Assembly: GCA_958295935.1 (NCBI GenBank)
Contig: OY282385.1
Span: 1,240,001 to 1,304,000, forward strand
DNA length: 64,000 nt
Direction: 5' to 3'
Source: an uncultured Dehalococcoidia bacterium
GTDB lineage: Bacteria > Chloroflexota > Dehalococcoidia > Lucifugimonadales > Lucifugimonadaceae
Shown here: positions 3,216 to 6,111 of the stretch, piece by piece
Numbering within the stretch: the first letter of the stretch is position 1
Layout: each line of letters opens with the position of its first letter
Made by a program: the position numbers and the translations under genes
The notes under the pieces: model-generated
Told to the model about the DNA's origin: nothing
Seen by the model: only the letters and a program-made list of their open reading frames with translations
Database searches by the model: none

Positions 3216-3339
3216 CAAAGGCGACGCAGGGGCGATGAGGGAGAGATAGAACTCTCGGCCTCGTCGCTTTCCGCTGCGATTGCGGGGGCTGCCCGGCCGG
3301 GTGGACGCCGCGGCCCGAATAAGTGGGCCGCTCGCCGGG

Positions 3340-3753
3340 ATGAAACGCTCGGCTGCACCGACGGCCCACGAGTTCGACGACAGAAAGGCAGTCGCGTCGG
3401 CAGCGGCGGAACGAATGCAAGCCGAAAGAAGGCTGTCAGGCGTGAGGCTAGGCTATAGCAACTACGGGATGCGGACCGTGGATGTCTTTGCGGCGCTGCC
3501 GAGGCTCCAGTCCATGGGCTACGGAGCCATCGAGATCTGCGCCAGAGACGGCTGGCAAACGGCGGCAGACCGCTTTGGCGCCTCAGAGAGAAGAAGGCTG
3601 GCAGCCCTGTTGCGAAAGACTGGGTTTCCGCCTGCCCCTGTCATGGAGTCCCTGTCCGTCTGCGCAATGGGGCGCGACGCGACCGCAATGCTGCGCCGGG
3701 CAGAAGATACGTTCGCCCTGGCCCGCGCCATGCTCCGTAGGGGCCGTTCCTGA
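3340..3753 (+). pseudogene. Truncated sugar-phosphate isomerase/epimerase-like gene
   Basis: The protein contains LGYSNYGMRTVDVFAALPRLQSMG followed by GAIEICARDGW, which resembles strands 1-2 of a xylose-isomerase-like TIM barrel (sugar phosphate isomerase/epimerase family). The frame stops after about 137 residues, whereas the family is usually 250-300 residues, so strands for the metal-binding and catalytic half are missing. The break falls just before the convergent TusA-MetE fusion gene, suggesting that a deletion or rearrangement removed the 3' part. The start is uncertain; ATG at 3340 is used, and an upstream start at 3280 is also open. I read this as a gene remnant rather than a short functional protein. 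Confidence 0.5.
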
Positions 3754-3795: not shown

Positions 3796-5319
3796 TCAGC
3801 CGCGTAGCAGGTCGCGCGCATGGACGATTGCTCTCAACTTGTCTTCGGAAGTTTTCGCAGAAGATACCGGATTGTCCGCAAAAGTCGCGAACCCGCAATC
3901 GGGCGTCAGAAGGACTCTCTCCTCACCGAAAAGATCGATCGATTGCGAAATTCGACTTCGTATGGTCTCTACCGACTCCACAAAGTCGAGTTTCTGGTTG
4001 ACGACGCCGACACCAATGCGCTTGTCATCGGGAAGACCCCCCAGCACCGCGGCATCGCCTGCGCGGGCTGTGCAAAGCTCGAGAAGCAAAACCCCCACGC
4101 CGACCCGCCTCAATAGTCCCAACAAGGGTTGATAATCCCCGGAAAGGGCGGCTGACTCATCGCGCGTCCAGTTGCCACGGCAAACGTGCAACCCAAGACG
4201 CTCCGCCGGGAGACCATCTACCACCTCGTTCAACAGCCCCAGCGCAAAGTCGAGCTCAACCGCGGGTTCAAGCTTTTCGCTCAATGCCCCGCACATGAAA
4301 CTGCGCCGTCGGTTCGCCCCTCCGAACACCACCTCAGTCAGTACCGGCTCGTCGAACTGCACCAGCGCGGCCCCGCCCGCGAGCAGGAAATGCAGCTCTT
4401 CACGGAGAACGCGTACGACGTCCCGGGCCAGATCATCGCGAGTCTCATAGGGACGCTCGGTCAGACAATCCAGCCACATGGTGCGCGTCAGCAGGTAGGG
4501 ACCGGGCAGCGCCACCTTCACGGGCCTCTGAGTGCAAGCTCTGGCAAACTCAAGCTCGTGGACAGCCAACGGGAGACTTCTTCCCAGCTCCCCGTAGACC
4601 ACTGGATGCCGAACATCCGCGGCCGGCACGTCGAGGGCGCGGAGTTCTTCGGCGAACTTTCCTGGATCGTCAACCATCGCGGTGAGATCGCTCAGCGGAA
4701 TAAGCTGGCAGTTGTCTAGCAGGCCGCCCACGAAACTGGCGTAGCTGTCCCTACGCTGCTCGCCGTCAGTCAGTACGTCCGCGCCTGCTCGAATCTGTGC
4801 CGCGATGCAAAGGCGGGCCGCATCATCCGCGGTAGCCTGAAAATCGGCTTCATCTATCCTGCCCTCAAGACGGTCGTGCATGGTCTGAAGCATCCAGCGC
4901 GGTCTGGGCCAACTGCCAATGCCCATTACTGACAGCGGCTCGATCCTGGGGGCCGAAATTGGCTGTGGAAGCGACTCGGGAATCCTGACCTCCACCCGAA
5001 GTTGCTCCCCTATAGGAGCGGTCGAGGCCAGCGTCTTTCGCCCGCGCGCCCCGCGCGCCTGAAACGGGCCTTTGGAAACAAGGTAGCTGCGCTGCTTGCC
5101 CGTCCTGGTCCAGGAAACCAGTTCGTTGTTGGTCATCCTGCACCACGCAGGCAGCTCGACTTCTACCGTGGAATCGGTGGACAGGATCTCGAGCAGTTCC
5201 CCTTTGCCGATGGGGTCTATGTGCTTGCGAATGAGGAGCAGCAGACCGCCGCCGCAATCCAGGTCGCCGCCGTCGAAACTGACGTCAGGATCGTGAGAGT
5301 GTCGCTCGACGGCGTTCAT
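3796..5319 (-). CDS. TusA-like domain fused to MetE-like methionine synthase catalytic domain
   Basis: This 507-residue protein has two parts. Residues ~10-90 resemble a TusA/SirA sulfurtransferase domain: a Cys followed by GGGLLLLIRKHI, then an acidic strand and PAWCRMTNNELVSW. Residues ~120-507 resemble the C-terminal catalytic barrel of cobalamin-independent methionine synthase (GIGSWPRPRWM near the start). The MetE zinc ligands are visible as H378 and C380 (LHVCRGNW), E414 (LLLELC) and C475 (TPDCGFAT). The MetE N-terminal folate-associated half is absent, as in the short 'core-MetE' enzymes, some of which take methyl groups from donors other than methyl-folate. It is the last gene of a cluster with a DsrE-like and a stand-alone TusA-like gene. 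Metal-dependent methyl transfer to a thiol is well supported; the true acceptor and donor, and the use of the TusA domain, are inference. Confidence 0.82.
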   Translation of the reverse strand: MNAVERHSHDPDVSFDGGDLDCGGGLLLLIRKHIDPIGKGELLEILSTDSTVEVELPAWCRMTNNELVSWTRTGKQRSYLVSKGPFQARGARGRKTLASTAPIGEQLRVEVRIPESLPQPISAPRIEPLSVMGIGSWPRPRWMLQTMHDRLEGRIDEADFQATADDAARLCIAAQIRAGADVLTDGEQRRDSYASFVGGLLDNCQLIPLSDLTAMVDDPGKFAEELRALDVPAADVRHPVVYGELGRSLPLAVHELEFARACTQRPVKVALPGPYLLTRTMWLDCLTERPYETRDDLARDVVRVLREELHFLLAGGAALVQFDEPVLTEVVFGGANRRRSFMCGALSEKLEPAVELDFALGLLNEVVDGLPAERLGLHVCRGNWTRDESAALSGDYQPLLGLLRRVGVGVLLLELCTARAGDAAVLGGLPDDKRIGVGVVNQKLDFVESVETIRSRISQSIDLFGEERVLLTPDCGFATFADNPVSSAKTSEDKLRAIVHARDLLRG

Positions 5320-5347
5320 CAGCAGGGACGGGAGGCGGCTGGGTAGC

Positions 5348-5743
5348 TCAATAGGTAATACATGGACTGCCGTCGGATAGAAACTCGACCAACTTCGCTC
5401 CTCCGACCATCAATGCGCCATCCAGCAGATTGTCCTCGTCGAGGTTCCGCTTCTTGAAGCAGGGAGCGCAGACGTAGATCTTGCCGCCCACGGCAGTGAA
5501 GTTGTCCATGAGGTCCTTCAGCGCCATGAAGCCGTCCTCGTGAACGTCGTCGGCATAACCCTTCTGGGAAAGGCGAACGCCCTCGGTACTAAGAAAGACG
5601 AGGGTGTCCTTCTCGGATCCCAGCGCGGCATTGGCTATCACAAAAGCCACGGTTGCCTTATCCGTATCGTCCTTGGCACAGGTCAGACTGACGCAAAACT
5701 TTCCTGACACGTAGACCTCCTCTTGTTGGCTCCAGGCAATCAA
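5348..5743 (-). CDS. DsrE/DsrF-like family protein
   Basis: This 131-residue protein resembles the DsrE/TusD-like family of small cytoplasmic sulfur-trafficking proteins. It shows an N-terminal strand with FCVSLTCAKDDTDKATVAF, then ANAALGSEKDTLVFLSTEGVRL, and IYVCAPCFKKRNL, whose Cys lies about where persulfide-carrying Cys residues sit in this family. It ends with LVEFLSDGSPCITY. It overlaps the upstream TusA-like gene by 4 bp and lies 28 bp before the TusA-MetE fusion, so the three are almost certainly co-transcribed. The partner order suggests persulfide transfer among the three proteins. The start could be at an internal codon (near VSGKFCVS); the first residues are not conserved-looking. 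Confidence 0.8.
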   Translation of the reverse strand: MIAWSQQEEVYVSGKFCVSLTCAKDDTDKATVAFVIANAALGSEKDTLVFLSTEGVRLSQKGYADDVHEDGFMALKDLMDNFTAVGGKIYVCAPCFKKRNLDEDNLLDGALMVGGAKLVEFLSDGSPCITY

Positions 5744-6111
5744 GCCTCTTTCTGTTCAATCCAGTAATCAGGATGGTCGGTTCGCAGCAAGCGGCGTCCG
5801 GTCATGCGGCACCACGCGGGCAGATCCTCCGGCGCGCCCGGATCGCGGGCAGTCAGCTTGAGGACCTCGCCGGGGCGCAGCTTCTCCATCCGCAGCCTTA
5901 GCAGAATGATGACCTCTCCACAACCCATATCCCCCGCGTCCCACTCGTCGCAGACGGCGATACTCGCTCCTTGTACTTGCTCTCTCGGCACTGCCCGACC
6001 AATTCGATATGGGTTGACGCCGCTGCCCCAATGCGCTCCAACCAATAAAATAATCCTCTCGGAACGTACCCTTAAGCGCCTATGCCAAATTAGCATCAGA
6101 CCAGGCTGCAA
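5740..6111 (-). CDS. TusA-like sulfurtransferase
   Basis: The last ~75 residues match a TusA domain: AGDMGCGEVIILLRLRMEKLRPGEVLKLTARDP and then PAWCRMTGRRLL. The Cys of GCGE sits where the TusA CPxP persulfide Cys sits, but the Pro is lost, and a second Cys is present in PAWCR. The first ~45 residues do not look like TusA, so the real start may be a GTG at about residue 40 (before PREQVQGAS). The TusA-like part of the downstream MetE fusion has the same altered motif and the same PAWCRMT stretch, so the two TusA-like units are probably paralogs. First gene of the sulfur-relay-like cluster. Confidence 0.75.
   Translation of the reverse strand: MQPGLMLIWHRRLRVRSERIILLVGAHWGSGVNPYRIGRAVPREQVQGASIAVCDEWDAGDMGCGEVIILLRLRMEKLRPGEVLKLTARDPGAPEDLPAWCRMTGRRLLRTDHPDYWIEQKEA

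Follow-up and report, generated by a model that had tools for sequence, protein, structure and literature searches.

What does a methionine-synthase-type barrel do when a sulfur-carrier domain is built into the same polypeptide and two further carrier proteins are encoded beside it? The question is raised by a three-gene cassette on the minus strand of a 64,000-nucleotide stretch of DNA from an uncultured Dehalococcoidia bacterium, here called the window. The features of the cassette are as follows:

5740..5991, minus strand: TusA/SirA-like carrier gene; frame open to 6111, likely start GTG 5991; PF01206, E 1e-9
5348..5710, minus strand: DsrE-like gene; frame 5348-5743; PF02635, E 7.8e-13; CAPC (CxxC) motif
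3796..5319, minus strand: TusA–core-MetE fusion, 507 aa; PF01206 and PF01717
5068..5283, minus strand: TusA-like domain of the fusion, residues 13-84; C22 and C60 invariant
3799..4938, minus strand: MetE catalytic barrel of the fusion, residues 128-507; zinc ligands H378/C380/E414/C475; homocysteine triad S136/E187/D323

The set of TusA-like protein, DsrE-like protein and TusA–MetE fusion proposed in an earlier note is real: an open reading frame check of the window returned minus-strand frames at 3796-5319, 5348-5743 and 5740-6111, and Pfam agrees, with the fusion matching PF01717 (E 1.1e-26) and PF01206 (E 9.7e-6, slightly under the gathering score). That note also had the genes overlapping, which the likely start sites do not bear out. 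A GAGGAGG ribosome-binding site precedes GTG 5710, most likely the start of dsrE, and the free tusA gene probably begins at GTG 5991; with these starts, the intergenic gaps are 29 and 28 bp, so that the genes would be closely spaced without overlap. The cassette is flanked in the window by a truncated convergent reading frame on one side and a tRNA-Gln gene on the other. The short plus-strand frame at 3280-3753, convergent with the cassette, has very weak HMGL-like and xylose-isomerase-like barrel matches and is probably a gene remnant.

The carrier parts retain the TusA sulfurtransferase fold and its catalytic Cys. The TusA domain of the fusion matches the E. coli TusA structures 1dcj and 3lvj by profile, which supports the Pfam assignment independently, and its C22 and C60 are invariant among 38 aligned fusions. 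Both TusA domains carry C-G-x-G/E where classical TusA has CPxP, with the catalytic Cys position aligned to that of E. coli TusA; in the free protein, this residue lies within MGCGE and aligns with the Cys of the E. coli CPEP. The CPxP motif itself is absent, and neither domain reaches the TusA equivalog NF001423 (26 and 32.2 bits against a cut-off of 78). The DsrE-like protein has the PF02635 fold and an active Cys, aligned with that of 3mc3. In some loci, the separate TusA bears a Cys-rich N-terminal extension of approximately 130-190 residues without a Pfam match (L093:4393-5127, L084:2700-3317, L132:5551-6201 and L109:4743-5540), and some cassette loci contain a second DsrE-like gene. No selenocysteine codon was found in the cassette; some copies of the fusion or the carriers contain in-frame stops, but these are either TAG or not at Cys positions. 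Two such stops, in fusion copies from metagenome-assembled genomes (MAGs) at residue 305 of L110 (TAG) and about residue 43 of L098, look more likely to be assembly errors or decay than recoding.

The catalytic half of the fusion is equally well kept. It combines a MetE-type barrel fold with the H-C-E-C zinc set and the S/E/D triad. All four zinc ligands named in the earlier note (H378, C380, E414 and C475) are present and invariant in the 38 fusions, as is the homocysteine triad S136/E187/D323, which corresponds to S433/E484/D599 of E. coli MetE; the published list of homocysteine-binding and zinc residues of MetE served for this comparison (PMC7857596). Three further Cys residues of the barrel, C204, C285 and C343, are invariant as well; the first two are so only among the fusions, and C343 is common to the fused and unfused clades. 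The predicted structure of the fusion (mean pLDDT 83.9) matches MetE structures at Z 33-36, including the MesD-type 3rpd (Z 35.6) and, at Z 33.0, the zinc- and homocysteine-bound MetE of T. maritima (1xdj). The N-terminal folate-binding domain of full-length MetE is not found in the fusion (PF08267 only at E 0.15), the N-terminus being occupied by the TusA domain. The barrel is of MetE type and not of the UROD/MtaA family to which Mlp and Sdm belong, and no corrinoid gene was seen in the cassettes inspected.

A search for TusA–MetE fusions and their neighbours found them widely. Among 84,980 genomes of a species-genome collection, 366 places encode a relative of the fusion; the 80 kept are 57-79% identical to the query and all align with it from residue 1-7 on, so that the TusA domain is covered too. 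Their records are labelled Chloroflexota, Latescibacterota, Acidobacteria, Verrucomicrobia, Planctomycetes, Binatota, Rokubacteria, Obscuribacterales, Actinomycetota, Gemmatimonadota and Alpha-, Beta- and Deltaproteobacteria. The fusion is spread over about a dozen bacterial phyla, with Paracoccus, Nitrospirillum and Duganella as cultured hosts; many carriers are MAGs, so that an individual phylum label may reflect a binning error. In the tree, all fusions group in a single clade (support 99/100), apart from a sister group of unfused barrels. Among the 62 fusion loci with at least 3.5 kb of upstream sequence, 61 contain dsrE and 55 a separate tusA; six of the seven lacking the latter belong to one Binatota-like group. 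Other families of the window's order have the same gene order, tusA-dsrE-tusA/metE, amid different flanking genes, a recurrence far beyond chance. As read from these alignments and neighbourhoods, the coupling of a chalcogen relay to a zinc methyltransferase barrel has been conserved as a unit in which every relevant residue is kept.

The cassette also accommodates additional genes. Between dsrE and the fusion, 13-16 proteobacterial loci have genes for an ABC transporter with an HtxB-like binding protein (E 1.4e-82 to 5me4) and PhnE- and PhnC-like partners. Eight to ten other loci carry, at the same position, genes for a membrane protein of 170-180 residues and an exported protein of about 520 residues. 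This pair is seen at L185 9853-11937 and in L112, L116, L119, L123, L125 and L129, the large protein being exported and membrane-anchored; neither Pfam nor the PDB yields a match for the 522-aa exported protein, and Pfam yields none for the membrane protein.

Which chalcogen, then, might the relay carry? In Paracoccus ferrooxidans, the gene order is selB ... sufS-type cysteine desulfurase – tusA – dsrE – two ORFs – fusion – selA – trxB, with SelA confirmed at E 1.4e-169. A verrucomicrobial locus (L093) reads tusA – dsrE – fusion – mop – selB – selA – oxidoreductase–SelD fusion, each selenium protein scoring above its NCBIfam cut-off, and five Chloroflexota loci (L071, L076, L077, L086 and L096) have selB 3.4 kb upstream of the cassette on the same strand. 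Physical linkage to selA, selB or selD genes is therefore seen in three lineages. The window's own locus is not among them: no sel genes were found within its 64 kb, beside the cassette or elsewhere, and most cassette loci have none within 6 kb. A selB-like match at 52-53 kb of the window was rejected, being an EF-Tu-like frame amid ribosomal and nusG/secE-like genes.

Co-occurrence gives a mixed picture. Of 50 carrier genomes drawn from many phyla, 38 have SelA above cut-off, and SelD is present in 10 of the 12 carriers without SelA, so that 48 of 50 have one or the other and two carrier MAGs have neither. The genome of the window's own organism has SelA and a TGA-containing SelD. Bacterial base rates are 24.7% for selenocysteine (Sec) decoding and 38.3% for SelD (PMC5322559); the binomial p of 4e-14 for SelA (38/50 against 24.7%) ignores phylogeny and is not to be taken at face value. 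Within Burkholderiales (300 genomes, 215 with SelD), carriers show no SelD enrichment (8/10 against 207/290 others, Fisher p 0.73), and in the window's order SelD is above cut-off in 170 of 197 genomes, a near-universal presence that offers no contrast. The linkage in three lineages is the real selenium evidence; the co-occurrence is compatible with it, not decisive. On balance, we lean towards a link between the cassette and selenium, whatever the mechanism.

As for that mechanism, the kept homocysteine pocket together with a fused chalcogen carrier suggests that the carrier presents the substrate, and the nearby selenium genes make demethylation of carrier-bound methyl-selenium the most economical reading. 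In the scheme that we infer, from its selenium cargo and carrier-bound substrate to the direction of methyl transfer and every relay step, the barrel would bind homocysteine as a zinc-thiolate, as MetE does, and the fused TusA domain would act as a built-in arm bringing a methylated chalcogen to the zinc/homocysteine site. The best guess for the carried group is a methylselenenyl on C22 (TusA-S-Se-CH3). Its methyl group would pass to homocysteine, yielding methionine and leaving the selenium on the carrier as a perselenide, which might then move via DsrE to the free TusA and on towards SelD for selenophosphate synthesis. Published work offers several parallels: YedF, a TusA-like/DsrE-like protein, tracks SelD (PMC5322559); in Methanococcus, a lack of selenium raises the transcripts of TusAD as well as those of SdmABC, a methyl-selenide methyltransferase (PMC11097638); and zinc methyltransferases of the Mlp/MtaA family act on selenide, SdmABC/Mlp being tied to the Sec machinery (PMC10418091). 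The cassette could well be a chalcogen-handling unit operating this demethylation scheme with selenium as its likely cargo, a reading that we hold tentatively. Its fullest form is possible but doubtful, namely a selenium-salvage pathway of mostly aerobic bacteria in which a corrinoid-free fusion passes the methyl group to homocysteine and perselenide travels through DsrE and TusA to SelD, with an HtxB-like importer of a small selenium anion (for instance selenite or methylseleninate) in some Proteobacteria. Against the selenium model stand the common background of selenium use in the groups examined (SelD in 170/197 and 215/300), the missing enrichment in Burkholderiales carriers, the two MAGs without SelA and SelD, the window's cassette and most other loci without a nearby sel gene, the lack of a selenocysteine codon in the cassette, and the equal ability of TusA and DsrE to carry sulfur.

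This last point leads to the leading alternative, which comes close to the reading of the earlier note and in which the same carrier-arm chemistry acts on sulfane sulfur or a methyl-thiol without a special tie to selenium, for example by demethylating methanethiol-type groups or methylating a persulfide. TusA, DsrE, OsmC and rhodanese are classical sulfur carriers, a sufS-type desulfurase adjoins the Paracoccus cassette, and OsmC and rhodanese adjoin the unfused sister clade. The barrels of that clade are approximately 40-41% identical to the fusion barrel and share an FMC motif with it. One of their settings, with OsmC and a tandem rhodanese, i.e., sulfur-transfer-type proteins, is found at L054, L052, L053, L058, L059 and L177-L180 in the window's order. 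The other combines OsmC, an acyl-CoA-dehydrogenase-type protein and an Rv1680-type binding-protein-like gene, the last adjoining only part of the unfused clade. The Rv1680-type gene stands beside OsmC and acyl-CoA-dehydrogenase-like genes in L164, L165, G041 and G001, with the unfused barrel also present in L165, G041 and G001. The neighbourhood resembles the M. tuberculosis Rv1679-Rv1680-Rv1681 arrangement, with MetE replacing the radical SAM protein; a search found no literature on Rv1680/Rv1681 function. A pure sulfur role leaves the adjacency of selA, selB or selD in three lineages without a reason, and 48 of the 50 carriers with SelA or SelD also speak against it; we consider it unlikely.

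Could the fusion instead be an alternative methionine synthase, using a methyl donor other than the known ones (cf. core-MetE/MesA-D), with TusA merely docking or regulating? Its zinc and homocysteine sites are complete, and no MetH activation domain was found in the window's own genome. That genome does encode a BHMT-type homocysteine methyltransferase with an adjoining B12-binding protein, an MtaA/CmuA-family methyltransferase and a RACo-type reactivator; this corrinoid methyltransferase operon (L037 5740-11439; G000:C1 about 448.7-454.4 kb) is a candidate methionine or methyl-chalcogen route. A second MetE-type barrel lies at L038 4698-5798 (G000:C1 about 6.7-7.8 kb), where it adjoins dipeptide-type ABC permease genes and an epimerase-like gene. 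Two relatives, G154 and G181, have the fusion together with the MetH activation domain, in G154 within a full-length frame of 1179 aa, and the fusion falls far under the cut-offs of the core-methionine-synthase equivalogs PRK04326 (137.8 against 406 bits) and PRK09121 (87.4 against 392). Because of these complete MetH proteins and low scores, methionine supply is, as far as gene content tells, not the general purpose of the fusion. An alternative synthase would also leave the invariant carrier Cys and the near-constant DsrE and TusA unexplained, and is improbable. The earlier note had read the locus as possibly a sulfur relay feeding methionine or homocysteine synthesis. What stands of this is the conserved carrier–zinc-methyltransferase unit, with an unfused sister beside OsmC and rhodanese; sulfur as cargo and the feeding of methionine or homocysteine are unsupported, because of the sel-gene linkage, the complete MetH in two relatives and the BHMT-type/corrinoid system of the window's own genome. 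The note had also held that complete MetH together with loss of the reactive TusA Cys would make a sulfur-relay role unlikely; complete MetH does occur in two carriers, and the Cys is not lost but invariant.

Selenium methylation is a known detoxification route, and the same parts run in reverse might methylate an excess of carrier-bound (per)selenide or sulfide to a volatile methyl-chalcogenide, but the linkage is to selenium-utilising selA, selB and selD rather than to resistance genes, and the conserved homocysteine site favours homocysteine as the methyl acceptor, making this quite improbable.

If the selenium model is right, the cassette would add a new branch to selenium metabolism. It is unsettled by what means bacteria take up selenium and direct it, in preference to the far more abundant sulfur, to SelD; according to a 2026 review, a high-affinity transport system specific for selenium has yet to be identified in any prokaryote (PMC13188914). 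The model would further imply a new use of the methionine-synthase barrel, with its substrate carried on its own fused arm. The cassette is widespread, present in cultured hosts and small enough for testing. We found no paper on a TusA–MetE fusion in the open-access literature, which is no proof of novelty; for PhnD with TusA or DsrE, only general sulfur papers were found.

Among known systems, the TusABCDE and DsrE3A-TusA relays share the carrier folds and active Cys positions but contain no methyltransferase, whereas the cassette enzyme is fused to its carrier. YedF likewise ties TusA-like and DsrE-like parts to selenium use, with a CxxC-type motif in both DsrE-like parts; it too has no methyltransferase, whereas in the cassette TusA and DsrE are separate proteins, the TusA lacks CPxP, and MetE is fused to a second TusA. 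The HtxBCDE/PhnDEC importers resemble the transporter of the 13-16 proteobacterial loci in their HtxB-like binding protein and PhnE-/PhnC-like partners, but the setting of the cassette importer is sulfur/selenium carriers and not phosphorus metabolism. MesA, MesB, MesC and MesD (PMC7857596; PMC7005905) are also MetE barrels free of the folate domain that keep the zinc and homocysteine residues, the nearest structure being the MesD-type 3RPD; no fused carrier is described for them, TusA, rhodanese and OsmC go unmentioned in the two core-MetE papers, and the fusion scores far under the family cut-offs and coexists with complete MetH. The closest published analogue is Sdm/Mlp (type I MGC; PMC10418091, PMC11097638), which shares a zinc-dependent barrel methyltransferase, linkage to selA/selB/selD and Sec-using genomes, and whose Sdm is induced together with TusAD by selenium depletion in M. 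maripaludis. Those enzymes are of UROD/MtaA type, work with corrinoid proteins and were described from anoxic environments, whereas the cassette has a MetE-type barrel, a fused TusA, no corrinoid gene of its own and many aerobic hosts. By mechanism, the cassette is a new form of carrier-linked, zinc-dependent methyl transfer and, if the selenium model holds, would be an oxygen-tolerant counterpart of the corrinoid methyl-selenide systems.
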